A DNA stretch of 64,000 nucleotides from Sphaerisporangium siamense (lineage in GTDB: Bacteria; Actinomycetota; Actinomycetes; Streptosporangiales; Streptosporangiaceae), in contig NZ_JACHND010000001.1 in NCBI RefSeq assembly GCF_014205275.1, positions 1,240,001-1,304,000 on the forward strand, read 5' to 3'. Positions 10,050 to 24,961 of this stretch are shown piece by piece. A program made the translations under genes and the position numbers. The notes under the pieces are model-generated. The model did no database searches, was not told the origin of the DNA, and saw only the letters and a list, made by a program, of their open reading frames with translations. Numbering within the stretch: position 1 is the stretch's first letter; every line of letters starts with the position of its first letter.

Positions 10050-10059
10050 TATAAATTAT
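10050..10059. promoter_or_regulatory. A/T-rich operator candidate 1 (TATAAATTAT)
   Basis: TATAAATTAT, exactly repeated at 12734-12743, lies 66 bp upstream of the amino-acid binding-protein gene and overlaps the stop codon of the DUF1275 gene. The core is a 4-1-4 palindrome (ATAA-A-TTAT). The surrounding stretch is sharply A/T-rich against the GC-rich background. Confidence 0.5.
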
Positions 10060-10796
10060 TTAACTTTGGTCCCCTGCGGCTGTGAAGCACCGTGTAACCG
10101 GAAGACCGCGACGAGGATCACGACCAGGACGACGGCGGGCCCCGCCACGGCCGCCGCCAGGGGCGACACCCGCATGAGGACCGCGCCTGCGGCCGCGCCC
10201 ACGGCCAGCCCCACGATGACCAGCGACCGCTGCGCCGAGCCGCCACGCTCGCCCGCGACCAGGCCGCCGCACAGCGACGTGAGCGTCCCGGTGACGAACG
10301 TGGTGGTGATCCCGTACGCGTTGAGCTGCCGCGCGGCGGCGGTCTGGATCCCCATCGCCGCGGACGACAGGACGATCAGCCCGACCTCGGCCCACGGCCC
10401 CGGGCGCGCCCCCGTACCGGCCCACCAGGCGAGGAACACCACCTGAAGGGCCAGGTCGGCGACGAGCGCCCAGGTGACCCGCCGTGGCCACAGCTCGTCG
10501 CGCGCGGGCGAGCGCGCGATGCGGAACCCGGCCAGGAGGCCCGCCGCGAACGCCAGGACGGCCAGCCCGCAGCGCACCATCTCGCCGCCGGCCCCCTCTC
10601 CCGCGGCGAGCCCGAACAGCACGATGTTGCCGGTCATGTTCGCCGTGAAGACCCGGTCGAGGCCCACGAACCCCACCACGTCCACGACACCGGAGACGAC
10701 CGTGAGCAGCACGAGCAGGGTGTCGCGGGTCCGTGGCCCGGCGGAGGGCGCCGCGCGGGCACGTCCGGCGGTGCGCGCCGCCGCGCCCGCGCTCAT
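10056..10796 (-). CDS. DUF1275 (YoaK-like) membrane protein
   Basis: Membrane protein of 246 residues with six or seven hydrophobic segments. VSGVVDVVGFVGLDRVFTAN, then MTGNIVLFGLA, is the signature opening of DUF1275, a family of unknown function often annotated as YoaK. MGIQTAAARQLNAYGITTT and FVTGTLTSL are also family-typical. It lies between the amino-acid importer and the PLP lyase gene, 22 bp after the latter, so it belongs to their operon; a role in export of a pathway product is possible but unproven. Confidence 0.9.
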   Translation of the reverse strand: MSAGAAARTAGRARAAPSAGPRTRDTLLVLLTVVSGVVDVVGFVGLDRVFTANMTGNIVLFGLAAGEGAGGEMVRCGLAVLAFAAGLLAGFRIARSPARDELWPRRVTWALVADLALQVVFLAWWAGTGARPGPWAEVGLIVLSSAAMGIQTAAARQLNAYGITTTFVTGTLTSLCGGLVAGERGGSAQRSLVIVGLAVGAAAGAVLMRVSPLAAAVAGPAVVLVVILVAVFRLHGASQPQGTKVK

Positions 10797-10818
10797 GCCG
10801 CCCCCACGGCGCGGCCGG

Positions 10819-11955
10819 TCACGAGGCGGCTCCGACGATGCCGCGGTAGGCGTCCGGATCGGTGGCGCCCTCGGTGTTGAGGATGAGCACCCGCGATTCC
10901 GGCGTGAGCCCGAGCGCCTCGGGCCCGGCGGCCAGCAGGCCCGCCGCCCCCGCCGCGCCGGTCTCGCCCGCGACGACGGACTCCTTCGCCAGCACGCGCA
11001 TCGCCTCGCGCGCCGCCTCGTCCTCCACGCTGAGGAAGACGTCCGTGCCCTGGACGACCAGCGGCCATGCCAGCGGCGAGGGACGGCCGCAGTTGAGCCC
11101 CGCCATGATGGACGGATGCGGGCCGGGGACCTCGGCGAGCGCGCCCGCCTCGGCGGAGGCGAACAGGCAGGCGGCGGTCTCGGGCTCCACGATGATCACG
11201 CGGGGCGGGACGGCGAGGGAGCCGGCGCGGAAGTGCCGCACGGCCGCCGCCGCCAGCGCGCCCACGCCCGCCTGGACGACCACCGCGTCCGGCTGTCCCG
11301 CGCCCGTCGCGGCGAGCTGGTCGGCGACCTCGTGGAACAGCGTCGAGTACCCCTCGATGACGGCGCGCGGCACGGACTCGTACCCGGGCCAGGAGGTGTC
11401 GGAGATCACCAGAGTGCGTTCGCCCGCCTCCGCGGCCGAACGCTCGATCGCCTCGTCGTAGGTGCCGTCGACCACGGTGACCTCCGCGCCCTCGGCCCTG
11501 ATGGCCTCCATCCGCGCGGGCACGGTGCCGAGCGGCACGAAGATGTGCGCCCGCCATCCGAACAGCGCCGCCATGCGCGCCACGCCCCGCCCGTGGTTGC
11601 CGTCGGTGGCGGCGGCGAGCGTCCGGTCGCCGAGCGGGCGCAGCAGGTCCCGCATCTCCTCGACGGACCGGCAGGCCCTGAGGTCGGCGCCCCATTCCTC
11701 GCGCACGGCGTGGGCCACCGCCCACGACGCGCCGAGGATCTTGAACGACGGCAGCCCGAGGCGCGACGACTCGTCCTTGACCATCACCTCGGCCACGCCG
11801 GCCCGTTCCGCGAGGGACGGCGCCGCGGTCAGCGGTGTCCGGGCGTAGCCGGGCAGGCGCCGGTGGAACTCCAGGGGGGCACGGTCGGGCGGGTTGAACG
11901 CGCCCAGGTCGGCCCGCGGACGGGCGGCGCGGTTGACCGACAGGCGGTAACGCAT
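10819..11955 (-). CDS. PLP-dependent lyase, diaminopropionate ammonia-lyase-like
   Basis: Cytoplasmic fold-type II PLP enzyme of 378 residues. The PLP lysine is K72 in LPSFKILGA, preceded by KDESSRLG. ATDGNHGRGVARMA holds the substrate loop and QAGVGALAAAAV the phosphate-binding region. N-terminal AFNPPDRAPLEFHRRLPGYARTPL and overall length fit 2,3-diaminopropionate ammonia-lyase (two ammonia plus pyruvate) better than threonine dehydratase; other beta-substituted amino acids remain possible. AGGAG precedes the ATG. Located 24 bp from an SDR gene and in the same direction, so the two are probably one transcript. Confidence 0.85.
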   Translation of the reverse strand: MRYRLSVNRAARPRADLGAFNPPDRAPLEFHRRLPGYARTPLTAAPSLAERAGVAEVMVKDESSRLGLPSFKILGASWAVAHAVREEWGADLRACRSVEEMRDLLRPLGDRTLAAATDGNHGRGVARMAALFGWRAHIFVPLGTVPARMEAIRAEGAEVTVVDGTYDEAIERSAAEAGERTLVISDTSWPGYESVPRAVIEGYSTLFHEVADQLAATGAGQPDAVVVQAGVGALAAAAVRHFRAGSLAVPPRVIIVEPETAACLFASAEAGALAEVPGPHPSIMAGLNCGRPSPLAWPLVVQGTDVFLSVEDEAAREAMRVLAKESVVAGETGAAGAAGLLAAGPEALGLTPESRVLILNTEGATDPDAYRGIVGAAS

Positions 11956-11979
11956 GAAGAACTCCTGCTGGTGGGGGTG

Positions 11980-12723
11980 TCAGACGGCGGAGTATCCGCC
12001 GTCGATGACGATCGACTCGCCGGTGATGTAGCCGGACTCCGGTGCGGCGAGGAACATCACCAGACCGGCGATGTCCTCGGGCTGCGCCTGGCGGCGCAGC
12101 GGGATGCGGGACTCCAGCTCCTTGAGCGCCTCGGCGGGGCTGGCCTGGTGGTGCCAGAAGGCGTCGTTGAAGGGGGTGTCCACCCATCCCGGGCAGATAC
12201 AGTTCACCCGGACGCCGTGCGGTGACAGCTCGTCGGCCAGCGCGCGTGCCAGGTTCACCAGCCCCGCCTTGGAGGCGTGGTAGGCGGGCATGCCCGCGTG
12301 CCCGCGCAGCGCGCCGGTGGACGAGGTGAAGATCAGCCGCCCGAGCGGGGACTTCTCCAGGTGCGGCGCGGCGGCCTGCGCGACGAGGAAGGGCGCGCGC
12401 AGGTTGACCTGCATGGACAGGTCCCACTGCGCCACCGTCCACTCCGCGAGCGGTGCGGCGAGCAGCACGCCGGCGTTGTAGAAGACCACGTCGAGGCCGC
12501 CGCCGAACTCGACGGCCGCGCGCACGGCGTCCCCCGGCCCGTGCGCGGTCGCGAAGTCGCACTCCAGGATCCGCAGCGGGCCCGGCGCCGCCTCCTCGGC
12601 GACCTCGCGCGCGGCCGTGAGGTTCCGGTCGGCGAGCAGCACGCTGTCGCCGCGTTGTCGGAACGCCTGGACCACCGCTCTGCCGATGCCGGTCGCGCCG
12701 CCCGCGACGAGAACCGATGCCAT
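11980..12723 (-). CDS. SDR family oxidoreductase
   Basis: Short-chain dehydrogenase of 247 residues. The cofactor loop is GGATGIG at residues 8-14, the NNAG-equivalent is YNAGV, and the catalytic set is the serine in FTSSTGA with YHASK. PGWVDTPFND and the C-terminal GESIVIDGGYSAV are family-typical. I chose the ATG at 12723 because GGAGGT lies five bases before it; a GTG six bases earlier overlaps that site. First gene of an operon with the PLP lyase, divergent from the GGT-like gene. Substrate unknown. Confidence 0.9.
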   Translation of the reverse strand: MASVLVAGGATGIGRAVVQAFRQRGDSVLLADRNLTAAREVAEEAAPGPLRILECDFATAHGPGDAVRAAVEFGGGLDVVFYNAGVLLAAPLAEWTVAQWDLSMQVNLRAPFLVAQAAAPHLEKSPLGRLIFTSSTGALRGHAGMPAYHASKAGLVNLARALADELSPHGVRVNCICPGWVDTPFNDAFWHHQASPAEALKELESRIPLRRQAQPEDIAGLVMFLAAPESGYITGESIVIDGGYSAV

Positions 12724-12733
12724 TGCCACCTCC

Positions 12734-12743
12734 GAGTATGTTT
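12734..12743. promoter_or_regulatory. A/T-rich operator candidate 2 (TATAAATTAT)
   Basis: The same ten bases as at 10050-10059, placed in the 54-bp divergent space between the SDR and GGT-like genes, where one bound protein could control both. The flanking stretch 12731-12761 is strongly A/T-rich. Confidence 0.5.
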
Positions 12744-12777
12744 TATAAATTATCTTCTATATGCAGAGGAGGGGTCA

Positions 12778-14223
12778 ATGGCAAGTTCGCCCGGCTCCGC
12801 GTCCACGGCCCACCCCCGGGCCACCGAGGCCGCGCTCGCCGTGTTCCCCGCGGGCGGCAACGCCGTGGACGCCGCCATCGCCGCCCAGGCGGTGCTCACC
12901 GTTCTCATGCCGGACGCCTGCGGGCTCGGCGGGGACGCGCTCTGCCTGGTGCGCACGCCCGACGGCCGGGTGACGGCGGTGACCGGCGCCGGCGCGACGG
13001 CCGCGGCCTCCCCCCGCGCGCTGTGCTCCGACGGCGGCGGCAGCGTCACCGTGCCCGGCATCGTGGACGCCTGGCAGGTCATGAGCCACCGGTGGGGCCG
13101 GCTGCCGCTCGCCCAGGTGCTCGCCCCCGCCATCGCGCTCGCCGCCGACGGGATGCGGGTGAGCGAACCGCTCGCCGCCGCCGTCCGCGCCCAGCGCGCG
13201 CGGCTGCTGCGCGGCGGGGCCGAGGGCTGGCCGCTGCTCGACGCGGCGCCCGGCGACCTCGTGACCCAGAAGGAGCTGGCCCGCACCCTGGAACGGATCG
13301 CCGCCGAAGGATCACCCGCCTTCTACCAGGGGCGCCTGGCCGGCGCGGTGGCCGCCGCCGTACGGCGCGACGGCGGCCTGCTCACCGAGGACGACCTCGC
13401 CCGCCACCGCACCCCGACCGGCCCCCCGATCGGCACGCCGTGGGACGGCGGCACGGCGTTCGTGCAGCCGTCCCCCAGTCAAGGCGTGCTGCTCGCCATG
13501 GCGCTCGCCTGGCTGGAACGCGAGGGCGTGCCGGGGCCGCTCGACCACGTCTGCGTGGAGCTCACCGAGGCGGTGTTCGCCGCCCGTGACCGGTGCGCCC
13601 GGGACGGCGCCCGGCTCCTCGACGTCCCGCTGCGGGTGGATCTCGAACGGTCCTCCCTGCGCGGCGGGCCGCGCGCCTACCTGCACACCGCCGGGGTCGC
13701 CACCGCCGACCCGGCGGGGCACGTCGTGTCGTCGCTGGTCAGCGTGTTCGACGACTTCGGGTCCTGCACGTTCGTGCCCGAAGGCGGGTTCACGCTCAAC
13801 AACCGCGCGGGCGGATTCACCGCTCCCCCCAACGACCCGGGCCCGGCGCGCCGCCCCGTGCACACCCTGGCCCCCGCGCTGCTGACCGCGCCGGGCCGGG
13901 TCACGGCGCTCGCCACCCCCGGCGCCGACGGCCAGGTGCAGACCCTGCTCCAGGTGCTCGCGCGCGTGCGTTTCACCGGAAGCTCCCTGGCCGACGCCGT
14001 CCGCGCCCCGCGGTGGCGCAGCGAGGAGGGGCTGCTGCTCGTCGAGGACGGCCACGCGAGCGCCGGCGACCTCGCCCGGCGCGGGCACCGCGTCACCCGC
14101 GTCCCCGGCGCCGACATGCGGCTCGGCGCCGTCGTCGCCGCGGGCGCCGAGAACGGCGAGGTCTTCTGCGCGGGCGACTGGCGCAGGCAGGTGCACGCCG
14201 CCGTCGCGGAACCGTCCGTCTAG
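12778..14223 (+). CDS. Gamma-glutamyltranspeptidase family protein
   Basis: Ntn-hydrolase-type protein of 481 residues, shorter than the usual 550-580. ATG at 12778 follows [30 protein letters not shown] and CGLGGDALCLVR mark the large subunit. The candidate autoprocessing and nucleophile threonine is T304 in YLHTAGVATADPAGH, followed by FDDFGS and FTLNNRAGGF as in the small subunit. The residues after the threonine (TAGVAT rather than TTHxSV) are unusual. There is no signal peptide, so it would act in the cytoplasm, unlike typical GGT. Followed by the M20-like gene, suggesting hydrolysis of an amide or glutamyl conjugate. Confidence 0.85.
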   Translation: MASSPGSASTAHPRATEAALAVFPAGGNAVDAAIAAQAVLTVLMPDACGLGGDALCLVRTPDGRVTAVTGAGATAAASPRALCSDGGGSVTVPGIVDAWQVMSHRWGRLPLAQVLAPAIALAADGMRVSEPLAAAVRAQRARLLRGGAEGWPLLDAAPGDLVTQKELARTLERIAAEGSPAFYQGRLAGAVAAAVRRDGGLLTEDDLARHRTPTGPPIGTPWDGGTAFVQPSPSQGVLLAMALAWLEREGVPGPLDHVCVELTEAVFAARDRCARDGARLLDVPLRVDLERSSLRGGPRAYLHTAGVATADPAGHVVSSLVSVFDDFGSCTFVPEGGFTLNNRAGGFTAPPNDPGPARRPVHTLAPALLTAPGRVTALATPGADGQVQTLLQVLARVRFTGSSLADAVRAPRWRSEEGLLLVEDGHASAGDLARRGHRVTRVPGADMRLGAVVAAGAENGEVFCAGDWRRQVHAAVAEPSV

Positions 14224-14326: not shown

Positions 14327-15532
14327 ATGTCCCTGTCCGAAGAACTGGACGCCCTGGTCGACGGCGCCCGCGAGGACCTCGTCGCGCTGTGCGGCCGGCT
14401 CGTCGCGGCCCCCAGCGTCAACCCGCCCGGCGACACCAGGGCGGTGGCCGACGTCGTGGCCGGCTACCTGCGTGAGCACGGGTGCGAGCCGGACCTCCTC
14501 AGAGTCGATCCGGTGATGCCGAACGTCGTGTCCCGGATCGAGGGCACGGGCCCCGGCCCGCACCTCGTGCTCAACGTGCACATGGACACCATGGACCCGG
14601 GCGACGAATCGCTCTGGTCGGTCCCCGTCCACGAGATGACCCGCGAGGACGGGCGCCTGTACGGCCTGGGCATGGGCAACATGAAGGGCGCCGTCGCCGC
14701 GATGAGCCTCGCCTACACACTGCTCGCCCGGCACGCCGACCGCTGGCCGGGCACGATCACGTTCACCGCCGTGTCCGACGAGTGCGTGTTCGGGGACAAC
14801 GGCGCCGCCCACCTGCTCGGCGCGCTGCCCGAGCTGCGGGGCGACGGGCTGATCTGCGGGGAGGGGCCGGGCTGGATGCGGCTCGCGGTCGCGGAGAAGG
14901 GCGTGCTCTGGCTGGAGCTGTCCGCGACGGCCGACGGCGGGCACTCCTCGCTGGCGGAGAGCGGCTCCGGCGCGGTCCCCCGGCTCGCGAGGTTCGTCGC
15001 GGCCGTCGACGAGCTGAACGGATGGCGCACCACGCTGCCCGCCGAGCTGGCCGACGTCCGCGCCTCCGGCGAGGACCCCTCCGCACGCCTGTCCGCCAAC
15101 CCCGGCACGGTCGAGGGAGGCTCCTACGTCAGCCAGATCTCCACGAGGGCCGCCGCCGCGGTGGACTTCCGGCTGCCGCCGGGCATCCGCATGAGCGACG
15201 TCGAGGACCAGGTGAGCCGCATCGCCGCGCGGATCCCCGGCGCGGACTGGTCCAGGATCAAGGGCTGGGACGCCAACTGGACCGGGACCCGTTCCCCGCT
15301 GGTCAGCGCGCTGGCCGGCGCGTTCCGCGAGGTGCGGGGCGCGGAGCCGGAGTACACGATCAGGCTGCCCGCGAGCGACGCCAGCCGCTGGCGGGCCCTC
15401 GGCGTGCCGGCACTGTGCTTCGGCCCGCAGCCGGTCCTCGCCGCGGGCATCGACGACTACGCCGAGGAGCAGGACGTCGTCGACTGCGCGAAGATCTACG
15501 CCAGGGCCGCCCTGGACTTCCTCACCGCTTGA
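14327..15532 (+). CDS. M20 peptidase-like protein with altered metal ligands
   Basis: Protein of 401 residues with the M20 (ArgE/DapE/carboxypeptidase G2) fold; ATG follows AAGGAG. H85 and D87 (NVHMD) match the first metal ligand and its partner. The bridging aspartate, normally in a GxxDxKG motif, is N118 (GMGNMKG). The usual Glu-Glu pair is E152-C153 (SDEC): general base kept, metal-binding glutamate lost. E179 is kept. The C-terminal histidine is replaced (D377 in GIDDYAEE). The dimerisation domain (about 195-300) looks normal. It may bind metal differently, act on a special substrate, or not be a hydrolase. Likely cotranscribed with the GGT-like gene. Confidence 0.85.
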   Translation: MSLSEELDALVDGAREDLVALCGRLVAAPSVNPPGDTRAVADVVAGYLREHGCEPDLLRVDPVMPNVVSRIEGTGPGPHLVLNVHMDTMDPGDESLWSVPVHEMTREDGRLYGLGMGNMKGAVAAMSLAYTLLARHADRWPGTITFTAVSDECVFGDNGAAHLLGALPELRGDGLICGEGPGWMRLAVAEKGVLWLELSATADGGHSSLAESGSGAVPRLARFVAAVDELNGWRTTLPAELADVRASGEDPSARLSANPGTVEGGSYVSQISTRAAAAVDFRLPPGIRMSDVEDQVSRIAARIPGADWSRIKGWDANWTGTRSPLVSALAGAFREVRGAEPEYTIRLPASDASRWRALGVPALCFGPQPVLAAGIDDYAEEQDVVDCAKIYARAALDFLTA

Positions 15533-15654
15533 ACGACCTCCGAAGCCCCGAACAACGTCCGAGAGGCCCATCCCCCACATCGTGAGATGTCAGCGACTCG
15601 CCTGACGCCGTCCCCGGCATCGGGCACGGCTCGCCCGCCGACGGGAACGCCGCG

Positions 15655-15795
15655 TCACCATGTGAGCCGGTCGGTGTCGTCATCGGAATCGTCCGGGCTG
15701 TCACGGTGTGCCACCCACGCCAGCACCAGACAGCCTGCCGTGAACAGGACGGCGATCGTCAACGCCGCGACGTCGCCGCCGGTCAGATGCTCCAC
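15655..15795 (-). CDS. Small single-pass membrane protein
   Basis: 46 residues from the GTG at 15795, which has AGGAAGG upstream and lies inside the end of the helix-turn-helix gene (13-bp overlap), implying translational coupling. One membrane segment (about residues 8-28, ALTIAVLFTAGCLVLAWVA) is followed by a strongly acidic tail (DSPDDSDDDTD). Last gene of the five-gene micro-operon. No family recognised. Confidence 0.55.
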   Translation of the reverse strand: MEHLTGGDVAALTIAVLFTAGCLVLAWVAHRDSPDDSDDDTDRLTW

Positions 15796-16190
15796 GGACC
15801 TGCCCTTCCTTCGACGACGAAGAGCGGGGGGCGGCCTGCCTGGCACAGCGCCTCGTCGACCGCCGCGCGCAGTGAGGCGAAGCGCTTCAGGTGGTTGCGC
15901 ACGGTGATCTCGCTCCGGCCTATCCTGGTCGCCGCCCGGGGGATGGACAGCCCGGCGGCCAGCAGCGGTGGCAGCCGTGGGTGCCAGGTGGTGTCGGTGG
16001 CGGGGCCGTGCAGCCGGCGGTGCCGCACGCGGCGCGCCTGCGCGTGGAAGGCGGGGTCGGCTTGGAAGTGCTTGGTGAGAGTGGCGGTGCCCACGCCCAG
16101 CCTGCCGGCGGCGGCCTTGAAGCTCAGACCGTCTTCGACCAGGCGCAGGAAGTCACCGTGCCATCTGACGTCCTTACGGGGCGCCATCAT
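15783..16190 (-). CDS. Helix-turn-helix protein, unknown family
   Basis: 135 residues from ATG at 16190, overlapping the previous stop by four bases. Two helix-turn-helix-like units are visible: LSFKAAAGRLGVGTATLTKHF (split here as residues about 20-40) and LSIPRAATRIGRSEITVRNHL near residues 90-110. The twin arrangement recalls phage terminase small subunits and other helix-turn-helix proteins that bind repeats, but there is no phage context. No enzyme domain is present. Probably DNA-binding; target unknown. Confidence 0.7.
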   Translation of the reverse strand: MMAPRKDVRWHGDFLRLVEDGLSFKAAAGRLGVGTATLTKHFQADPAFHAQARRVRHRRLHGPATDTTWHPRLPPLLAAGLSIPRAATRIGRSEITVRNHLKRFASLRAAVDEALCQAGRPPLFVVEGRAGPWSI

Positions 16191-16603
16191 CGGTCCCTTT
16201 TCTGGACAAGATCCGCTTCCGCGCCGGCTCGGACGTCGCGGAGCCTGCCGGTGATGTCGTCCTGCGCGCAGACCTCCATCACCAGGTCGGCCACGGTGCG
16301 CCGCGCGATGCAGGGGTACAGCCCGGCCGCGCGTTCGGTGGCGTCGAGCCCGGCACGGCGGAAGGCCCACCAGCCGCCGTGCCCGCCGTCCGATCGGCGC
16401 ACACAGGTGATGCGCCAAGCGGGGTAGTCCCGGTTGAGCGCGGCGAGCCGGTACTCCACGGTCAGCGCCCTGTGCCATCCTTCGCGGGGCGCCTCGCCGT
16501 GCTGGGGCACGTAGCCGCCGACGACAGGCCGGGCGTCGTACATGCCGTACACGTCGGGCACATCGCTACCACGGCGGGTGTGCCTCCCTGCTGCGCGGCT
16601 CAT
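16187..16603 (-). CDS. Small protein of unknown function (138 aa)
   Basis: Start ATG at 16603 overlaps the previous stop (ATGA). The middle, LNRDYPAWRITCVRRSDGG then WWAFRRAG, resembles a pattern (Trp-x-Ile ... Trp-x-Ala-x-Arg) seen in small actinobacterial proteins encoded near XRE regulators; none has a known activity that I can name. Its first eight residues, MSRAAGRH, are the same as those of the next protein upstream, so the two start regions may be duplicated. Confidence 0.7.
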   Translation of the reverse strand: MSRAAGRHTRRGSDVPDVYGMYDARPVVGGYVPQHGEAPREGWHRALTVEYRLAALNRDYPAWRITCVRRSDGGHGGWWAFRRAGLDATERAAGLYPCIARRTVADLVMEVCAQDDITGRLRDVRAGAEADLVQKRDR

Positions 16604-16887
16604 GCGACCCTCAGCGAGCCGGGCCCCCTCGCGGCCATCGCCTCCGACTCGCCCTCGCGCATCCGCTCGCGCAGTTCCTCCGCCGTGAGCGCCTCGACCA
16701 TCAGGGCCACCGGGCAGCAGATGGCGATGGCGAAGAACCTGCGGCTCCACAGGCCGTACATGACGTGCCAGCCGGGTTCGAGCTGATCGAGCCGCGCGGC
16801 CGTCGCCCTCTTGTCCTCATCCCACCGCAACGGCCGAACGCGGGTGACGGGCGCGCCCACCTCGTGCCGCCCCGCCGCGCGGCTCAC
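16600..16887 (-). CDS. Small protein of unknown function (95 aa)
   Basis: GTG start at 16887 shares GTGA with the previous stop. LEPGWHVMYGLWSRRFFAIA followed by LTAEELRERMREGESEAM resembles a small actinobacterial family linked to XRE regulators. It begins MSRAAGRH like its downstream neighbour. The hydrophobic run FFAIAICCPVALMV is too short and mixed to call a membrane anchor. No activity known. Confidence 0.7.
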   Translation of the reverse strand: MSRAAGRHEVGAPVTRVRPLRWDEDKRATAARLDQLEPGWHVMYGLWSRRFFAIAICCPVALMVEALTAEELRERMREGESEAMAARGPGSLRVA

Positions 16888-17282: not shown

Positions 17283-17412
17283 CGGATCGCACCTCCAGTG
17301 TGCGGTCAAGGGCTCGTCCGGTCGTGTGCAGCGCCGGGCGAGCCCGCCTACGTGTTACGGGTAGAAGCGAACGACGTTGCGTTGTTCATCACGTAGCCCT
17401 GTGGCTGCGATG

Positions 17413-17435
17413 GCGCCGTCACGAATCGACGGCGC
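17413..17435. terminator. Hairpin between XRE gene and micro-operon
   Basis: GCGCCGTC and GACGGCGC form a perfect 8-bp stem with a 7-base loop. There is no U-run. It lies 90 bp past the XRE stop and upstream of the small-ORF operon, so it could end the XRE transcript or act in the leader of the next. Confidence 0.45.
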
Positions 17436-17524: not shown

Positions 17525-18745
17525 TCAGTGCGGGAGCCCCATACGGGCGGCCATGCCACGCAGTTCCCTGCCGCCGGCGGCGAGGAGTTGCTGGTTGAGC
17601 AGAACCGCCACGGTCTCCCGGATCAGGGGGGAGTTCCGGACGCGCTGAGGCGCCGCCGTCTCGGCACGTCGCAGCCATCCGATCGCCTGGTGCCGAGACG
17701 TCTTCTCGCGCGCCAGGCCACGACCCACATCAGCCATCATGCTGACGTACCGGCTCGGGCGGGCGAGCGCCTTGTCCTCCCGCACCCGGCCCGCCAGGTC
17801 GAGTACGGCGCCGCCGACCTCTCCGCGCTCCACAGCGATGGCCACGTTCCAGATCCCCACGTTCGTCGTGGAGAAGGCGGCCCAGTTGGCCGTCATGTCG
17901 TCGGACACCCGCTTTGCCAGGTCAGCGGCCTCGCGCAGCCAGTGCGCGGCCCCGGCGTTGTTGTGCACCGAGGCGGCGGCGAGCGCGGCCGTCAACGTGA
18001 GCATGCCGCACACAGGTACCGCGCCAGGTTCGGCGAGGTGCGGCTGCATCCGGTCCGCCGCCTGCTCCGCAGCCCGCAGTGTGCGGTCCCAACTCCCCTC
18101 TCGGGGCATGGTCTGGACACGGAGGAAGTCCGCCTTGCCCTGCTGAACCGGATCGCCCAGGACCACCCCGGCCTCGGCCGCTCGCACGGCGGCGAGATGC
18201 GCCAAGTCGGGATGACCGAGTTCCTTGAGTGGGGTCACGGCGAACCGGCATGCCTCGATGAGTGCTTCCAGAGCACGCCGCATCTGCTGCTCGTCCGCCG
18301 GTGCGGCGATGTGCACATGCAGTTCATCGATGATCCCGGGGAGCATTCGCCCGATCGCGAGGTAATCCGAGGCCGCCGTCAGCGCATCGACCTTCGCCAC
18401 ATCTTCAAGAAGGTCGGGCAGGGGACGGGCATGGTCCGTCGCGGCGCTGGTGAGGCTGTTGGTCTCCAGAGCTACACGCAGTGCGGGAACGTAGGCGTAC
18501 GGTCCGGACTGCACCGGATCGTGTGACAGGTGCGGGCCGCCCACGAGATCGGCCTCAGAGACCTGAAGGGCACGGGCGATCGCGGCGATATGGGAGCGCC
18601 GGTCGAGGGCCCGTTCCCCGCGCTCCACCATCGACAGGAAACTCTTGCTGACTCCCGCCTGCCCGGCGAGTTCAACCAGGCTCTTCTTCCGCCATTTGCG
18701 GAGCATGCGCAATCTGGCACCGGTGGTAGTGCCGTTGTCGTACAT
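17525..18745 (-). CDS. XRE-family transcriptional regulator with C-terminal helical repeats
   Basis: 406 residues from ATG at 18745 with GGAGGG ahead. The N-terminal helix-turn-helix (about residues 9-62: RLRMLRKWRKKSLVELAGQAG, VSKSFLSMVERGERALDRR) is classic XRE. The remaining 330 residues are alpha-helical with TPR-like texture and no enzyme motif. In actinobacteria such proteins are often encoded next to small genes that they regulate or partner, as for WhiJ-type loci. Here the small-ORF operon lies immediately downstream in the same direction, which supports a functional link. Confidence 0.85.
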   Translation of the reverse strand: MYDNGTTTGARLRMLRKWRKKSLVELAGQAGVSKSFLSMVERGERALDRRSHIAAIARALQVSEADLVGGPHLSHDPVQSGPYAYVPALRVALETNSLTSAATDHARPLPDLLEDVAKVDALTAASDYLAIGRMLPGIIDELHVHIAAPADEQQMRRALEALIEACRFAVTPLKELGHPDLAHLAAVRAAEAGVVLGDPVQQGKADFLRVQTMPREGSWDRTLRAAEQAADRMQPHLAEPGAVPVCGMLTLTAALAAASVHNNAGAAHWLREAADLAKRVSDDMTANWAAFSTTNVGIWNVAIAVERGEVGGAVLDLAGRVREDKALARPSRYVSMMADVGRGLAREKTSRHQAIGWLRRAETAAPQRVRNSPLIRETVAVLLNQQLLAAGGRELRGMAARMGLPH

Positions 18746-18840
18746 AGCCCCGCCCCTCCTGAAGCCTCGACGCCTTCAGGCTAAGCCGCGGAGCTTTCTC
18801 CCTGCTATGGATGCCGATTTTCGGTCATCCCACGTCTGAG

Positions 18841-18881
18841 TCCGCTGGAGCCCGTTACGTTGCGAAACGGGCTCCAGCGGA
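18841..18881. terminator. Strong hairpin, 16-bp perfect stem
   Basis: TCCGCTGGAGCCCGTT (18841-18856) pairs perfectly with AACGGGCTCCAGCGGA (18866-18881) around a 9-base loop. It lies 75 bp beyond the end of the HbpS/GlcG gene, so it most likely terminates the dehydrogenase operon. No clear U-run, common in GC-rich actinobacteria. Confidence 0.8.
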
Positions 18882-18955
18882 CTTTCTGGTGGTCGTGACG
18901 ACACCCCGGTGCGGGAGTGCGGTGTGACGGGGTCTCGTCACGCCTTTCCGTGCCG

Positions 18956-19393
18956 TCAGGCGGTGGTCAGGCCGGCGGCGGCGAGTGCCGCGTCCGCGCA
19001 TGCCTGGTCGACGTCGGCCGCCGACCCGCTGACGCCGAGGCCGCCGACGAGCCTGCCGCCCACCTTGATGGGCATGCCGCCGGCGAAGACGACGAAGCGC
19101 CCGCCGAGGGTGGTGTTGAGCCCCCAGTCGGGGCCCCCGGGCTGGGAGCGTTCCGCCCAGACGTGGCTGGGCAGCCCGCAGCCGACCGCGGTGTACGCCT
19201 TGTCGATGGCGAGGGGAAGCGCGACGATCTGCGCCCCGTCCATGCGCATGGCGGCGACCACCTGCCCGCCGAGGTCGACGACGGCCGCTCCCATCGCCAC
19301 CCCGCGACTCTCGGCCTCGGCGCGTACGCCGTCCAGCAACCGGCCGGCCAGATCGAGGCTCACGTCCTCGCGGCTCACGGTCAGATCGGTCAT
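18956..19393 (-). CDS. GlcG/HbpS family protein
   Basis: 145 residues; start ATG at 19393 overlaps the E2 stop by four bases (ATGA). The fold is marked by GVAMGAAVVDLGGQVVAAMRMD, then VVFAGGMPIKVGGRLVGGLGVSGS and DQACADAAL, as in GlcG and the haem-binding HbpS. Known roles differ between members (haem binding, redox sensing, or unknown in glycolate and diol operons), so only the family is firm. As the last gene of the dehydrogenase operon it may be an accessory or sensor protein. Confidence 0.9.
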   Translation of the reverse strand: MTDLTVSREDVSLDLAGRLLDGVRAEAESRGVAMGAAVVDLGGQVVAAMRMDGAQIVALPLAIDKAYTAVGCGLPSHVWAERSQPGGPDWGLNTTLGGRFVVFAGGMPIKVGGRLVGGLGVSGSAADVDQACADAALAAAGLTTA

Positions 19394-20064
19394 GCGATCA
19401 CCTTCATCCACTCAGGTGCTTCCAGCAGTTCGCCGACGTGGGTCAGGAATCGGGCCGCCGGCACGCCGTCGACGACCCGGTGGTCGCACGTCAGCGTGAG
19501 GGTGAGTCGGGAGCCGCGGGCCGATCCCACGGCGAGGATCGCCGCCTGCGGCGGCAGGACCATCGCCTGGAACCTGGTGACGCCGAACGGGCCGAGGTTG
19601 GAGATCGTGAAGGTCGCCGTGAAGAGCTCCGCGGGACGCAGCTTCCCGTTCCTGGCGGCCTCGGTCAGCCGGACCCGTTCCGCGGCGAGCTCGGGGAGGC
19701 CCTTCGTGTCCGCCCCCTGGATCACCGGGGTGATCAGGCCGTCGTCGAGCCCGACGACGAAGGCGACGTTGACGTCGGGGTTCTCCACGATCGCGTCCCC
19801 GTCGAAGCGGGCGTTGACCACGGGGAACTCCCGGAGGGCACGGGCCGAGGCCGCGACGAGCGCGTCGGAGTACGACAGCGCCGTCCCCGACGCGCGCAGC
19901 GCGGCCAGCGCCCCGGTGTCGATCTCCACGTCCACGCTGAACTGCGGGACCCGCGCGCTGGCCTCCACCGTGCGCACCACCCCGGCGCGCATCCGCGACA
20001 GCGGCCGGCGCACCTCCGTCGCGCGCTCGGTCTGCTCGGCCTGCGGGGTCTCCTGGCCGGTCAT
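19390..20064 (-). CDS. 2-oxoacid dehydrogenase E2 acyltransferase, catalytic domain only
   Basis: 224 residues comprising only the acyltransferase core. The catalytic motif is DHRVVDG (H195, D199), near the C-terminus; RRPLSRMRAGVV near residue 20 is the usual first helix of the core. Neither a lipoyl domain nor a peripheral-subunit-binding domain is present; the lipoyl domain is a separate gene immediately upstream, coupled by ATGA. It would transfer the acyl group from the lipoyl arm to CoA. The lack of an E1/E3-binding segment means the complex must assemble in a non-standard way or recruit one elsewhere. Confidence 0.9.
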   Translation of the reverse strand: MTGQETPQAEQTERATEVRRPLSRMRAGVVRTVEASARVPQFSVDVEIDTGALAALRASGTALSYSDALVAASARALREFPVVNARFDGDAIVENPDVNVAFVVGLDDGLITPVIQGADTKGLPELAAERVRLTEAARNGKLRPAELFTATFTISNLGPFGVTRFQAMVLPPQAAILAVGSARGSRLTLTLTCDHRVVDGVPAARFLTHVGELLEAPEWMKVIA

Positions 20065-20291
20065 GGGCTGAGGCGGGCGATGACGGCGCCGACCTCCACG
20101 GTGTCGCCCGCCGTCACCAGCAGCTCCGTGACGGTCCCGTCGCCCGGCGACTCGACCTCGGCGTCGACCTTCTCGGTCTCCACCGTGGCGACGGGCTGGC
20201 CCTCGGTGACGGTGTCGCCGACCTGGACGTGCCACTCGGTGATGACGCCCTCTTGCATTGACATGCCCCACTTGGGCAGCGTGATGTCCAT
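20061..20291 (-). CDS. Stand-alone lipoyl domain protein
   Basis: 76 residues forming one complete lipoyl/biotinyl domain and nothing else. The lysine to be lipoylated is K41 in VETEKVDAEV; the N-terminal ITLPKWGMSMQEGVI is typical of E2 lipoyl domains rather than glycine-cleavage H protein. It would carry the acyl group between E1 and the separately encoded acyltransferase. Coupled to that gene by a four-base overlap. Confidence 0.93.
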   Translation of the reverse strand: MDITLPKWGMSMQEGVITEWHVQVGDTVTEGQPVATVETEKVDAEVESPGDGTVTELLVTAGDTVEVGAVIARLSP

Positions 20292-20312: not shown

Positions 20313-21284
20313 TCAGGCGAGGGTCTTCATGACCGCGGCCCTGATCCTGTCCTCGTCCACCAGCACCCGCTTCTCCAGGACCGGCGAGAAGGGCACCGGC
20401 ACGTCCTCCCAGGCCACGCGCTGCGGCGCGGCCTTGAGCACGCCGTAGGCGTTCTCGGTGACGGTGGCGACGATCTCGCTGGCGGCCGAGCAGGTGAGCC
20501 GGGCGCTGTCGCAGACGACGAGCCGGCCCGTCTTGCCGACGGACTCCAGGATCGTGTCGGTGTCGAGCGGCGCCAGCGTGCGCGGGTCCACGACCTCGGC
20601 CGAGATGCCCTCCTTCTCCAGGGCGGCGGCCACCTTGAGCGCCTTCGGCACGGTCGCGCCGATGGCGACCACGGTCACGTCCGTGCCCCTGCGCTTGACG
20701 TCCGCGACGCCGAGCGGGATCGCGTACGGCTCCTCGGGGACCTCGCCCTTGGTGCCGCCGAGGACGAAGTCCTGGAAGTAGACGACCGGGTTCGGCTCGC
20801 GGACCGCGGACAGCATCAGTCCCTTGGCGTCGTACGGCGTTGAGGGCATGACGATCTTGAGCCCGGCGACGTTCATCAGCATCGGGTGCGGGTTCTCCGA
20901 GTGCTGCGCCGCGCCGGAGCCGCTCGGGCCCGTCGCGGTGAAGTACACGATGGGCAGGTCCACCTGGCCGCCGGACATGTAGCGCAGCTTGGCGGCCTGG
21001 TTGGCGACCTGGTCCATGGCGACGTAGAAGAAGGAGCCGACCATGAGGTCCACCACGGGCCGCAGCCCGACGGCGGCGGCGCCCACGCAGGCGCCGACGA
21101 ACGTGGCCTCGGAGATGGGGGTGTTGCGCACCCGGTCCTCGCCGAACTCGCCGACCAGGCCCCGGGTGGCGCCGATGATCGACCGGTCGACGTCCTCGCC
21201 GATCACCACGACGGAGTCGTCCTCGGCCATCGCCGCCCTCAGGCCCTCCTGCATGGCCTGGATGTAGTAGATCTTCCTGCTCAC
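20313..21284 (-). CDS. 2-oxoacid dehydrogenase E1 beta subunit
   Basis: 323 residues of the pyrimidine-binding half of a thiamine-diphosphate E1. GEDVDRSIIGATRGL, NTPISEATFVGACVGAA and FVLGGTKGEVPEEPY mark the family; the C-terminal transketolase domain begins near residue 195. Starts at a GTG overlapping the alpha-subunit stop (GTGA). Alpha/beta E1 of this size serves pyruvate, acetoin or branched-chain complexes; sequence resembles the pyruvate/acetoin side. Confidence 0.93.
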   Translation of the reverse strand: MSRKIYYIQAMQEGLRAAMAEDDSVVVIGEDVDRSIIGATRGLVGEFGEDRVRNTPISEATFVGACVGAAAVGLRPVVDLMVGSFFYVAMDQVANQAAKLRYMSGGQVDLPIVYFTATGPSGSGAAQHSENPHPMLMNVAGLKIVMPSTPYDAKGLMLSAVREPNPVVYFQDFVLGGTKGEVPEEPYAIPLGVADVKRRGTDVTVVAIGATVPKALKVAAALEKEGISAEVVDPRTLAPLDTDTILESVGKTGRLVVCDSARLTCSAASEIVATVTENAYGVLKAAPQRVAWEDVPVPFSPVLEKRVLVDEDRIRAAVMKTLA

Positions 21285-22318
21285 GGGCGGGCACCTTCCG
21301 TACGGTCGGCATACAGGTGGGCGAGCGCCTCGTCGGCGTCGGGGAAGGGGCTGGCGTCGGCGAAGGCGACCGCGGCGTCCACGGCGGCCACTTCTTCAGC
21401 GTCGATCCGGTCCAGTTCCCCCTCGCCGGCGATCCCGGCGTCGATCAGGTGCCGGCGGAACCTCGCGATGGGCTCCTTGCCCCGCCAGTCGTCCTGCTCG
21501 TCCTGCGGGCGGTACTGCCCGGCGAACGCCTCCTCGCCCTCGTTGTGGCCGTGCCACCGGTAGGTGGCGGCCTCGATCAGGCTCGGGCCATCCCCGGCGC
21601 GGGCGCGGGCCACCGCCTCCTCGGTCGCCTGCCGTACGGCGAGCACGTCGTTGCCGTCCACCTGCACACCCGGGATGCCCATGGGCGCGCCGCGGTCGGC
21701 GATCTTCCCGGCGGTGAGCCGGTGCGTGGGAGTCCACTCGGTGTAGCCGTTGTTCTCGCAGACGAAGACCACCGGCAGCTTCCAGATGGCCGCCAGGTTC
21801 ATCGCCTCGAAGAAGACCCCCTGGTTGGAGGCCCCGTCGCCGAAGAAGGTCACCGTGACGTTGTCGCGGCCCAGTTGCTTGTCGCCCCAGGCGGAGCCGG
21901 TGCCGATCGGGATGCCGCCGCCGACGATGCCGTTGGTGCCGATGATGCCGAGGCTGAAGTCCACGATGTGCATGGATCCGCCCTTGCCGCGGCAGTAGCC
22001 GTCCACCCTGCCGAACAGTTCGGCCATCATGCGGTCGACCTGCGCGCCCTTGGCGATCAGGTGGCCGTGGCCGCGGTGCGTGGAGGTGATCCGGTCGTCG
22101 TCCCGCAGCGCCGAGCACACGCCGACGGCGACCGCCTCCTCTCCCAGGTAGAGGTGGACGAAGCCGGGAAGCCTGCCCCGTTTGAACAGGAGCGCAAGCC
22201 GCTCCTCGAAACGCCGGATGCGCACCATCTGGCGCAGCATCTGCAGTTGCTCGTCGCGCGCGAGCGCGGCACCTCGCATGACGTCGGTCACTGTGCCTCC
22301 GAACCGGCCGACCACCAT
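21281..22318 (-). CDS. 2-oxoacid dehydrogenase E1 alpha subunit
   Basis: Up to 345 residues. The thiamine-diphosphate motif is [18 protein letters not shown] to ENN near residues 170-200. [14 protein letters not shown] and [11 protein letters not shown] are typical of pyruvate/acetoin E1 alpha. The start is uncertain: ATG at 22318 has AGGAA upstream, and GTG at 22291 has GGAGG only four bases away. First gene of a five-gene operon (E1 alpha, E1 beta, lipoyl protein, E2 core, GlcG-like). An E3 gene is missing, so a housekeeping dihydrolipoamide dehydrogenase must be shared. Confidence 0.93.
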
Positions 22319-22366
22319 CAGTTCACGTTCCTGCTGCTACGGCTCTTGGCCGACTACGGATTTTTT

Positions 22367-22377
22367 TATAATATATA
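22367..22377. promoter_or_regulatory. A/T-rich operator candidate 3 (TATAATATATA)
   Basis: TATAATATATA follows a run of seven T in the divergent space between the E1-alpha gene and the SDR-lipA pair. It matches the ATAAAYTAT motif of the other sites at seven of nine positions. It may overlap or form a -10 element as well. Confidence 0.45.
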
Positions 22378-22428
22378 GCCCTAACTCCGCAAGGGGTGTC
22401 ACGCTCCATATCCGCGAAGGGCCACAAA

Positions 22429-23229
22429 TTGGACATTCAGTCATCCCGATCGCTGACAGGGCGCGTCGCCGTCATCACCGGAGGCGCCCAGGGCATCGGC
22501 CGGGCCATCGGCGAGCGGTTCGCCGCGGAGGGTGCGACGGTGGTCCTGGCCGACCTCGCCGTGGACAGGGCCGCGTCCGCCGCGGCCGAGATCGAGAGGA
22601 CCCACGGCCGCCCGGTTCACGCGGTGCGCATGGACGTGGCCGACCCGGCGTCCGTCGAGCAGGCGGCCGACGAGGTGCGCGACCGCGCCGGCCACCCGGA
22701 CGTGCTGGTCGCCAACGCGGGAACACTGCTGCTCAAGCCCGTGCTCGACATCAGCCTAGACGAGTGGCGGCGTGTCCTCGACGTCAACTTGACCGGCGCG
22801 TTCGTCACGGCGCGCGCCTTCGCCGCGCGCATGGTGGAGCGGGGCGCCGGGGGACGGATCATCTTCTCCTCCTCGCTGTTCGGACGCCGCGGCGGCAGGG
22901 AGAACGCCGCCTACTCGGCGTCGAAGTTCGGGGTGATCGGGCTGATGGAGTCGATGGCCGCGGAACTGGCCCCGCACGGCGTACTCGTGAACGCGGTCTG
23001 CCCCGGCCAGGTGGCGACCGAAATGATCGACCGGCTGGTCGGCGAGCGCGCCGCGCTGACCGGAGCCGACGCCGAGACCGTCAGGAGCGAGATGGTGGAG
23101 AGGATCCCCGTCGGCAGGCTCGGGTCGGTCGAGGAGATCGCCGACGTCTACGTCTACCTCGCCGGCGAGCTCAGCCGGTACGTGACGGGACAGTCCCTGA
23201 TCGTCGACGGCGGCTGGACGGTGGGATGA
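22429..23229 (+). CDS. SDR family oxidoreductase
   Basis: 266 residues if it begins at the TTG at 22429, which has GAAGGG seven bases ahead; a GTG 33 bp earlier has GAP-free but badly spaced purines and is less likely. TGGAQGIG is the cofactor loop, ANAG the second motif, with the catalytic serine in FSSSLFG and YSASK. Ends [15 protein letters not shown]. Divergent from the dehydrogenase operon and coupled to lipA by ATGA. It probably oxidises an alcohol intermediate of the same pathway; an acetoin-type or hydroxy-acid substrate would fit but is a guess. Confidence 0.88.
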
Positions 23230-24194
23230 GCATGGACGCCCCCGACACCCGCGCCCCCGCCGCCGAGCGTCCGGCCGCGAACCCCCCGGCCCGGCGGACG
23301 CTGCGCCTGGAGGCGCGCAACAGCGTGACCCCCATCGAGAAGCGGCCCGACTGGATCAAGGCCAGAATGCGCGTGGGCCCGGTCTCCCGCGAGCTGCACG
23401 ACCTGGTGCGCTCGGCCGGCCTGCACACGGTCTGCGAGGAGGCCGCCTGCCCCAACATCCACGAGTGCTGGGAGGACAGGGAGGCCACCTTCCTCATCGG
23501 CGGCGAGCGCTGCACACGGCGCTGCGACTTCTGCCAGATCGACACCGGCAAGCCGTCCGGCTACGACCGGGACGAACCACGCCGGGTCGCCGAGTCGGTC
23601 GCGCGCATGGGCCTGAACTACGCGACGGTGACCGGCGTCGCCCGCGACGACCTGCCCGACGGCGGCGCCTGGCTGTACGCCGAGACCTGCCGCCGCATCC
23701 ACGCGGCGGTCGAGGGATGCGGCGTGGAACTGCTGATCCCCGACTTCATGGGCGTTCCCGAGCTGCTCGGCGAGGTGTTCTCCGCGCGCCCGGAGGTCCT
23801 CGCGCACAACGTCGAGACGGTGCCCCGCCTGTTCCGGCGGATCAGGCCCGGTTTCCGCCACGACCGCTCGCTCGGCGTGCTGACGGCGGCGCGGAAGGCC
23901 GGTCTGGTCACCAAGTCGAACCTGATCCTCGGGCTCGGCGAGACCCGCGAAGAGGTCTCCGAGGCCATGCGGGAGCTGCTCGACGCGGGCTGCGAGCTGC
24001 TCACCATCACCCAGTACCTCCGCCCGAGCACGCGCCACCACCCCGTGACGCGCTGGGTACGACCTCAGGAGTTCGCCGACCTGCGGCAGGAGGCCGAGGA
24101 GATGGGCTTCGCCGGCGTCATGTCGGGTCCGCTGGTCCGGTCCTCCTACCGGGCGGGGCGGCTGTACCGGCAGGCCGTGGCCGCGCGGTCGTGA
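23226..24194 (+). CDS. lipA: Lipoyl synthase
   Basis: Radical-SAM enzyme of 322 residues that inserts two sulfurs into octanoyl chains on lipoyl domains. The auxiliary [4Fe-4S] cluster cysteines are C70, C75 and C81 ([12 protein letters not shown]), and the radical-SAM cysteines are C96, C100 and C103 (CTRRCDFC). [14 protein letters not shown] and ILGLGET are family motifs, and a late RSSYRAG supplies the conserved serine. It shares four bases with the SDR stop. Its position across from a lipoyl-domain gene suggests a pathway-specific copy; no octanoyltransferase (lipB) or ligase accompanies it. Confidence 0.95.
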
Positions 24195-24221
24195 CGCCCG
24201 GCCATCGCGGGGCGGGCGGGG

Positions 24222-24920
24222 CTAGTGCTCGACGAGGCCCCGGATCGCGGCGACCGTCGAGCGCACGTGCTCGGCGGCGACGCGGTCGGCCCGCTCCGCG
24301 TCCTGGTCGCGGATGGCGTCCAGCAGCTCGGCGTGCACGTTGATCCACCCGCGGCCCAGCGTGGGGGCGATCGCCGAGTAGTAGAAGCGGGCCCGCTTCT
24401 TCATGCCCGCCAGGGTGGCGCCCAGCACCGAGTTGTGGGCCGTGGCCCAGATCAGCTCGTAGAACTGGACGTCCAGGACGGCGAGCTCGTGGTCGTCGCC
24501 CCGCTCGGCGGCGTCGCGGCTGGACTCGACGATGCGGGAGAGCTCGGCGAGCTCCTGCTCGGTGCGGCGCGCGGCGGCGCGGGCCGCCGCCATGCCTTCG
24601 AGCTCGGCCCGCACGTCGAACAGTTCCTCAAGCTCCTTGCTGGTCCGCTCGCAGACATAGGTGCCGTACCGCGGCCGGATCTCGATCCACCCGGCGGCGT
24701 CGAGCGCGCGCAGGGTCTCGCGGACGGGAATGCGGCTGACGCCGTAGTGCGCGGCGATGTCGTCGGCGTGCAGGCGCTGGCCCGGCTTCAGACCGCCTCC
24801 GATGATCGCCTCTTCCAGCACCTGGTAGAGCTGGGCGGGCAACGTGCTCGACCCGGGCATGGCCAGTAACCCTTGCAGGGACGATGCCGCCTCTTCGGCG
24901 TCCCTCGCCTTTCGTGGCAT
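24222..24920 (-). CDS. GntR-family regulator with FCD domain
   Basis: 232 residues from ATG at 24920 (GAGAGAG ahead); a start at 24962 would place the operator inside the gene. The GntR winged helix spans about residues 28-95 (LEEAIIGGGLKPGQRLHADD, HYGVSRIPVRETLRALDAAGW) and the helical FCD ligand domain about 105-225, with the expected metal-binding D/H positions partly visible. Convergent with lipA. The A/T-rich motif in front of it recurs at three other promoters, so it likely autoregulates and controls the amino-acid importer, lyase/GGT and dehydrogenase operons. Confidence 0.9.
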   Translation of the reverse strand: MPRKARDAEEAASSLQGLLAMPGSSTLPAQLYQVLEEAIIGGGLKPGQRLHADDIAAHYGVSRIPVRETLRALDAAGWIEIRPRYGTYVCERTSKELEELFDVRAELEGMAAARAAARRTEQELAELSRIVESSRDAAERGDDHELAVLDVQFYELIWATAHNSVLGATLAGMKKRARFYYSAIAPTLGRGWINVHAELLDAIRDQDAERADRVAAEHVRSTVAAIRGLVEH

Positions 24921-24946
24921 CGCTCTCTCATCCGTCTTGGGAACCT

Positions 24947-24961
24947 TGAATAAACTATACA
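24947..24961. promoter_or_regulatory. A/T-rich operator candidate 4 (autoregulatory)
   Basis: TGAATAAACTATACA is a 6-3-6 palindrome with one mismatch, just upstream of the FCD-GntR gene. Its core ATAAACTAT differs by one base from ATAAATTAT at 10051 and 12735. Several FCD-type regulators bind TGTATACA-like palindromes, which this resembles. Confidence 0.5.

Follow-up and report, generated by a model that had tools for sequence, protein, structure and literature searches.

A shared A/T-rich palindrome at four promoter regions of a probable catabolic island in Sphaerisporangium siamense, and its candidate FCD-GntR regulator

A 15-kb island in the Sphaerisporangium siamense genome carries short A/T-rich words in front of several neighbouring groups of genes, and one of them precedes the gene of a GntR-family regulator with an FCD domain (FCD-GntR). 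The question raised by this locus is whether the words are copies of one operator and whether this regulator reads them. The window analysed is a stretch of 64,000 nucleotides (64 kb) of contig NZ_JACHND010000001.1. Because one A/T-rich signal, unusual in so GC-rich a bacterium, stands before the neighbouring gene groups and before the regulator gene, these genes probably form a single nutrient-degrading unit under common control. Judged from sequence, it is fairly probable that the four sites are a shared operator with FCD-GntR as the most likely binder, in a local catabolic regulon such as an earlier sequence-only reading of this DNA had proposed.

The words TATAAATTAT at 10050-10059, TATAATATATA at 22367-22377 and TGAATAAACTATACA at 24947-24961 were present as that reading had claimed. 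The second, identical copy of TATAAATTAT, which it had placed at 12734, is actually located at 12744-12753. Alignment of the four promoter sites gave the palindrome ATA-N3-TAT as their common element, and all the places that had been named carry it: the ABC transporter operon, the pair of short-chain dehydrogenase (SDR) and GGT-family genes, the pair of E1-alpha and SDR-lipA, and the FCD-GntR gene. In the window ATA-N3-TAT starts five times (10044, 10051, 12745, 22368 and 24950), always at these four promoters. The aligned cores are ATAAATTAT (10051 and 12745), ATAATATAT (22368) and ATAAACTAT (24950). Site 1, which covers the final 8 bases of the DUF1275 gene, has a second palindrome, ATAGAGTAT at 10044, overlapping the copy at 10051. 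The position of site 4 makes it a candidate for autoregulation by FCD-GntR.

The core of site 2 overlaps the -10 hexamers of promoter-like sequences on both strands. This opposed pair, TTGACC-18-GATAAT and TTGCCA-17-TAAATT, gave the only promoter-like matches in 15.2 kb (shuffled control, 0.3). Since site 2 lies inside both, a protein bound there would block both. Site 3 contains the sole TATAAT and the sole ATATATTA of the window. Promoter scores on both strands of site 2 and TATAAT in site 3 would suit an explanation in which the words are strong sigma-70 -10 elements only, alike by function and under no common regulator. However, such words are rare, with 22 copies of ATA-N3-TAT and five A/T runs of at least 13 nt in the 8.51-Mb genome, and other half-site spacings were not enriched. 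TATAAT occurs once in the window, so the sites are not ordinary -10 boxes of the neighbourhood. Nor was the palindrome found as a plain -10 element at many unrelated promoters, the remaining 17 copies being scattered over 16 places of the genome. We regard the promoter-element explanation as improbable.

Five of the 22 genomic copies lie within 15 kb here. The motif written backwards, used as a control, gave 35 copies genome-wide, so ATA-N3-TAT is not over-represented overall but is locally clustered. At the other 16 places, where coding frames were read with the genes unannotated, no related island was recognised. Enrichment in the window is limited to spacing 3: every other spacing from 0 to 12 gave 0-2 copies, some within the same sites, and 40 kb of flanks had no copy of ATA-N3-TAT. 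TATAVWWTATA with one mismatch allowed gave 18 rows genome-wide, 9 of them here, against 19 for its control, which again means local clustering without overall excess. A genome scan for ATAAAYTAT, the check proposed with the sequence-only reading, returned 4 copies, 3 of them here, and thus clustered at the island. Runs of at least 13 A/T gave 12 overlapping matches, that is 5 distinct runs, three of which are sites 1, 2 and 3. The probability of such a cluster anywhere in the genome was ~1e-6 by a scan-type estimate (22 copies, overlaps counted), ~1e-4 with overlaps collapsed and 9e-5 for the A/T runs; these are post hoc estimates, because ATA-N3-TAT was written down after the sites had been seen. 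That order of events, and promoters being A/T-richer than genes, would favour a chance cluster of A/T words. Set against it are the estimates for the whole genome, about 1e-4 to 1e-6, and the complete conservation described below, and we give chance hardly any weight. The earlier judgement that chance was unlikely is borne out by 5 of 22 copies and 3 of 5 long runs at these promoters, with the post hoc nature of the figures kept in mind.

The regulator was found in 2 of 11 genomes of the genus at E<=1e-30, this one (G000) and G172. The G172 island has ~96-97% DNA identity and keeps the regulator (97% identical), the genes and the sites. Across 93 core bases of the sites, by our own delimitation, there was no change. 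Synonymous divergence (dS) was 0.05-0.12 in 16 of the 18 island genes, and the ratio of nonsynonymous to synonymous divergence (dN/dS) was 0.00-0.41, with no stop, in the aligned parts of all 18; alignments were partial for the ATPase (residues 1-240 of 264), the DUF1275 protein (from residue 20) and E2 (1-220 of 224). Gaps with sites differed at 0/71, 0/54, 2/112 and 21/230 positions, and site-less gaps at 5/57 (solute-binding protein (SBP)-permease), 2/60 (ATPase-NCS1), 5/27 (LipA-GntR) and 31/103 (GGT-M20), the last perhaps partly by poor alignment. A footprint of core size was seen only at site 4, where identity falls just outside the site, and on one flank of site 1.

A block at 15534-18955 with an XRE/HTH_31 regulator gene is missing from the otherwise collinear G172, in which the sites persist. 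It is either an insertion here or a loss in G172, and the XRE protein was rejected as regulator of the sites, being absent there. In G172 the interval between the HbpS-like and E2 genes (L009-L010) contains an additional 1.3 kb, which includes a reading frame that by eye resembles IS605 OrfB/TnpB. Lsr2 is an H-NS-like silencer that prefers A/T-rich DNA, and a regulator gene in 2 of 11 genus genomes together with rare long A/T runs could mean that the stretches are nucleation points for it on an acquired island. But the island has 67-78% GC like its surroundings, the stretches are short with one promoter each, and spacing 3 is specific. We hold silencer nucleation to be very unlikely.

Copies of ATA-N3-TAT were fully listed for three genus genomes, G000, G108 and G191. 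Dense clusters within about 10 kb were found in G191 (6 of 32 copies; L097, 4354-14811) and G108 (5 of 33; L098, 5302-14855), with palindromes near gene starts and scan estimates of about 1e-8 and 1e-6, respectively. Both surround an FCD-GntR gene, the products being 36% (G191) and 33% (G108) identical to the island regulator and scoring 95.1 and 101.9 bits with Pfam FCD; a GntR-like stretch would fall within such a span by chance in about 9% of cases. The sites read ATACNGTAT, and some of them overlap at a distance of 7 bp, like the pair in site 1. The genes of this second catabolic island of the genus (CoA-transferase III, acyl-CoA ligase, a thiamine pyrophosphate (TPP) enzyme, a ketopantoate-reductase-like protein and MFS) resemble a set for oxalate breakdown. 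Because the two clusters seem to be a single shared locus, they count as one supporting case.

The island also encodes a pyridoxal phosphate (PLP) lyase and an M20 deacylase. These two are paired on each of the six plasmids of Deinococcus that gave the best matches to the lyase. Three of the six have an adjacent divergent GntR gene, with FCD shown for that of D. taeanensis, to which the other two proteins are 69% and 60% identical. In all three, ATATATTA lies within an A/T palindrome in the gap between GntR and the M20-lyase pair; on the three plasmids without adjacent GntR it was absent from about 200 bp upstream. The three gaps (L050, L053 and L054) measure 48, 20 and 54 bp; two hold the palindrome TGATATATTACATATCA and the third TAATATATTA. 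Relatives of the Deinococcus regulator occur in 15 plasmid records, of which nine were examined upstream. ATATATT was present in seven (three Deinococcus, Meiothermus, Arthrobacter, Sulfobacillus and Metabacillus), that of Metabacillus being uninformative because of its 37% GC, and absent in the Rhodococcus and Ideonella records. The Rhodococcus upstream region has one ATA-N3-TAT, ATACGATAT. In Meiothermus and Arthrobacter this lyase is not beside the regulator gene, whose neighbours there are an aminotransferase with an ABC importer and ACC deaminase. By analogy these cases support A/T-rich operators for such GntR proteins, short of proof for the island regulator. A literature search on GntR and TAATATATTA found nothing.

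FCD-GntR scored 59.1 bits with Pfam GntR (cut-off 27) and 88.4 bits with FCD (cut-off 24.3). Aligned to 7xp0, it matches three of the four D/H/H/H positions and has Tyr for one His; we take these positions to be the metal ligands of the FCD domain, which are not in all members. FCD-GntR is the best candidate regulator, favoured by adjacency, by the site before its own gene, by the 3-nt spacing and by the genus clusters around related FCD-GntR genes. In FadR-subfamily operators the distance from GT to AC is usually 3 nt (PMC4494728).

Several observations weigh against this reading. The spacing fits, but the core is without the TKGT/ACMA boxes, 2-3 nt apart, of FCD operators and has no GT...AC pair, which the known ones contain (PMC4494728). 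In the case of Atu1419, a figure legend of PMC7797058 describes the contacted G as essential. FCD-GntR had a match at 1e-24 in 93 of 394 class genomes (own included), and ATA-N3-TAT was found within 400 bp upstream in none of the 29 best actinobacterial relatives examined (33-42% identical); one of the 29 had an A/T run of at least 8 in these 400 bp. The upstream region of a Streptomyces plasmid relative (L038) also lacked ATA-N3-TAT, and eleven relatives from one genus (L064-L072, L074 and L075) conserve CTATAGGATCA instead. Among the island sites the Deinococcus word ATATATTA is only in site 3 and not in sites 1, 2 and 4. The sites of G191 and G108 have C-N-G centres where the island sites are A/T-rich, and our genome's own counterpart of their regulator (71-72% identical) had no ATA-N3-TAT in the surrounding 20 kb. 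Regulators near the lyase are elsewhere mostly Lrp/AsnC (proteobacteria) or LysR (two actinobacteria), not GntR. Finally, G000 and G172 are too alike for the footprint to be strong.

The missing GT/AC boxes, the 29 of 29 relatives without the motif, the 17 of 22 copies outside the island and a second FCD protein at 2181-3017 would all suit a real shared operator whose binder is encoded elsewhere, FCD-GntR being merely target or neighbour. But no ATA-N3-TAT precedes the second FCD gene, the XRE block is missing from G172, and the dense clusters in two other genus genomes also lie around an FCD-GntR gene. An external binder seems to us unlikely, with a small but real chance. Thus, of the claim that one motif ties the unit to one regulator, the rare palindrome linking the promoters and the FCD-GntR gene stood, while FCD-GntR as its binder is unproven, because the motif lacks GT/AC boxes and none of 29 relatives has it upstream. 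The eleven relatives mentioned above also conserve GATAGGAT upstream, likely the operator of a different FCD regulator.

The island itself was sought in other genomes. Apart from that of the 11 genus genomes, the genome searches for the regulator scored a limited number of candidates per genome, so that misses are possible. Among the candidates scored, regulator orthologues were found at E<=1e-60 in 2 of 200 family genomes (own and G172) and at 1e-45 in none of 394 class genomes besides our own. The lyase was found in 4 of 394 class genomes at 1e-80 and E2 in 4 of 325 genomes at 1e-35, own included in both. Two distant regulator-like loci were found in genome contigs, and one plasmid had a regulator match at 41%, with no A/T run of at least 9 in its 30-kb region. 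The neighbourhoods of matches in G208, G229, G533, G270 and G284 were read and the island was not found; that of G284 has an E1/E2 set. In G491, another actinomycete, a different E1/E2/SDR cluster contains a distant GntR gene and has an A/T palindrome of its own; GCTCACTATTATATT occurs there twice (L046 10579 and L047 5666), once in the SDR/GntR gap. SDR1 had no match on plasmids at 1e-60. E1-alpha matched 167 plasmid records, all below 60%, and none of three neighbourhoods read was the island.

Sites and genes are listed in Table 1. The six putative transcription units were delimited by gaps and overlaps between genes alone, and together they are likely a co-regulated unit of about 18 genes. 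In the presumed ABC operon the NCS1-type permease gene is the penultimate one. The second FCD regulator has an unusual pairing, since its N-terminus matches HTH_12, the winged helix of ribonuclease R, rather than GntR.

Table 1. Sites and genes of the island in window coordinates, with the predicted unit of each gene
Feature	Position	Strand	Unit	Remarks
Site 1	10044..10063	.		ATAGAGTATAAATTATTTAA; two overlapping ATA-N3-TAT, 7 bp apart; upstream of SBP gene
Site 2	12741..12753	.		TTTTATAAATTAT; in the 54 bp separating the divergent genes of SDR1 and the GGT-family hydrolase
Site 3	22360..22377	.		ATTTTTTTATAATATATA; between divergent E1-alpha and SDR2-lipA
Site 4	24947..24961	.		TGAATAAACTATACA; 26 bp upstream of FCD-GntR start codon
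MBL-fold (metallo-beta-lactamase) hydrolase	5105..5965	-	site 1	nearest NCBIfam models N-acyl homoserine lactonases, 22 listed, all below cut-off
NCS1-type permease (cytosine/purine/allantoin)	5970..7463	-	site 1	Pfam above cut-off; NCBIfam NCS1 model below its cut-off
ABC ATPase	7524..8318	-	site 1	family match
ABC permease	8311..8976	-	site 1	family match
Family-3 SBP, amino-acid type	9034..9984	-	site 1	family match
DUF1275 protein	10056..10796	-	site 2, SDR1-lyase-DUF1275	family match
PLP lyase, diaminopropionate ammonia-lyase family	10819..11955	-	site 2, SDR1-lyase-DUF1275	NF006058 372.9 bits, cut-off 276; PDB 4d9g, 5ygr
SDR1	11980..12723	-	site 2, SDR1-lyase-DUF1275	family match
GGT-family (Ntn) hydrolase	12778..14223	+	site 2, GGT-family-M20	Thr304 at nucleophile position; gamma-glutamyl pocket residues not kept
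M20 ArgE/DapE-type deacylase	14327..15532	+	site 2, GGT-family-M20	family match
HbpS-like protein	18956..19396	-	site 3, E1/E2	family match
E2, catalytic domain only	19390..20064	-	site 3, E1/E2	domain search
Free-standing lipoyl domain, 76 aa	20061..20291	-	site 3, E1/E2	domain search
E1-beta	20313..21284	-	site 3, E1/E2	family match
E1-alpha, TPP-dependent 2-oxoacid dehydrogenase	21281..22318	-	site 3, E1/E2	pyruvate-type relatives
SDR2	22396..23229	+	site 3, SDR2-LipA	family match
LipA, lipoyl synthase	23229..24194	+	site 3, SDR2-LipA	NF004019 411 bits, cut-off 203; TIGR00510 315.3, cut-off 310.25
FCD-GntR, candidate repressor, 232 aa	24222..24920	-	site 4	Pfam GntR and FCD above cut-off

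The PLP lyase passed two of three NCBI diaminopropionate models, NF006058 and TIGR01747 (277.9 bits, cut-off 274), and not TIGR03528 (300.9, cut-off 532). Its residues 27-374 align to the solved enzymes 4d9g and 5ygr. By these models and this near full-length alignment, the PLP lyase of the sequence-only reading belongs to the diaminopropionate ammonia-lyase family. Its 2-oxoacid dehydrogenase was likewise recovered as an E1/E2 gene set, with LipA in the island. E1-alpha (349.9, cut-off 393.85) and E1-beta (300.9, cut-off 321) did not reach the curated pyruvate dehydrogenase cut-offs. E2 is split at 19390-20291 into a bare catalytic domain and the separate lipoyl protein; no lipoyl or E3-binding domain was found in the E2 protein at E<=0.001, and there was no E3 gene among the island genes.

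Cleavage of gamma-glutamyl bonds, by contrast, was not supported. Thr304 of the GGT-family protein is residue 1 of the small chain by alignment offsets. The GGT small subunit usually starts with TTHxS, and the residues after Thr304 differ. Aligned to 4y23, the protein has Gly, Gly and His-Thr at the Arg, Asp and Ser-Ser positions, which we take to be the gamma-glutamyl pocket, and with TIGR00066 it scored 202.5, below the cut-off of 357.85. Since the pocket is not kept, 'glutamyl' should be dropped. Breakdown of N-acyl homoserine lactones by the MBL-fold protein, which scores below all listed lactonase cut-offs, is at most possible.

Similar hydrolases were found beside relatives of the lyase: M20 deacylases in Deinococcus, Paenarthrobacter and Rhizobium, enzymes of the Zn-dependent or carbamoylase type in D. 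ficus, Rhizobium, Paraburkholderia and Agrobacterium, and an amidohydrolase in Bosea. In Streptomyces sp. KN37 neither M20 nor another such hydrolase stands beside it. A pathway core in which a blocking group is removed and ammonia is then eliminated to leave a 2-oxoacid is reasonable. At the level of families, the sequences support the diaminopropionate-type lyase, the M20 deacylase and a 2-oxoacid dehydrogenase that depends on lipoate and has a LipA of its own. On a Rhodococcus pseudokoreensis plasmid (L094), lipA lies together with ACC deaminase, pdxS, a GntR gene and an amino acid permease gene. The placing of lipA next to ACC deaminase and a GntR relative on a Rhodococcus plasmid follows a logic similar to that of the island. 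A literature search on diaminopropionate ammonia-lyase and GntR showed no such regulon by titles and abstract openings, and among the papers listed in a further search (15 of 545) none contains the lyase's name. We infer one undescribed pathway, which is plausible and which the sequence-only reading partly misnamed.

In the proposed mechanism, the four sites would serve as copies of one operator for a dimeric repressor. FCD-GntR, encoded next to them, is the most likely repressor and would also act on its own gene. Sitting over the -10 region, it would keep the six units off. The inducer would be the imported amino compound or a derivative of it, which would release the repressor. The compound would enter via the ABC transporter, perhaps also via NCS1, and lose an acyl or similar blocking group to the M20, GGT-family or MBL-fold hydrolase. 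The lyase would then eliminate ammonia to leave a 2-oxoacid, to be oxidised by the dedicated E1/E2 complex with a lipoyl group made by the island LipA. The strongest form of this proposal, in which FCD-GntR reads a nearly all-A/T ATA-N3-TAT lacking the G that arginine contacts in known FCD operators and controls an undescribed pathway from the lyase to the split-E2 dehydrogenase and LipA, is possible but rather doubtful.

If the proposal is true, it joins about 18 genes in a single testable pathway under one switch and adds to the GntR family a type of operator that departs from the accepted consensus. Counts of extreme A/T words or of clustered ATA-N3-TAT could reveal such units in GC-rich genomes at low cost, since three of the five long A/T runs mark this island and the same count led to the FCD-GntR island of G191 and G108.

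The dehydrogenase resembles pyruvate and acetoin dehydrogenase sets in its E1-alpha, E1-beta, lipoyl and E2 genes, and differs from them in the split E2, the E1 scores below curated cut-offs and the lack of E3 in the island. The islands of G191 and G108 share with ours the genus, a related FCD-GntR, five to six copies per about 10 kb and the 7-bp overlaps, and differ in site centres and in gene content. The Deinococcus divergons share a GntR gene beside the M20 and diaminopropionate lyase families and an A/T palindrome in the gap; their regulators are 30-35% identical and the pair has no adjoining ABC, E1/E2 or LipA genes. BioR regulates biotin genes. It belongs to the same subfamily and reads an A/T-rich palindrome, TTATMKATAA, outside the GT/AC consensus (PMC4494728), so exceptions to GT/AC exist among GntR regulators, although its half-sites are arranged otherwise than in ATA-N3-TAT. 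As at site 2, a -10 box is overlapped by the operator in the cases of Atu1419 and AlkR (PMC7797058, PMC12042122). The operator of Atu1419 (Agrobacterium fabrum, VanR group) is given as ATGTATACAT (PMC7797058). The window has a single copy of its half-site TGTATA, at site 4, and sites 1-3 are without it. In HypR of Streptomyces coelicolor, the motif CTNTGC(A/C)ATGTCAC has GT/AC elements whereas the island cores are nearly all A/T. In other respects HypR (PMC6608401) is alike, with GntR and FCD domains, a local catabolic regulon of several promoters, autoregulation and a site over the -10 region.

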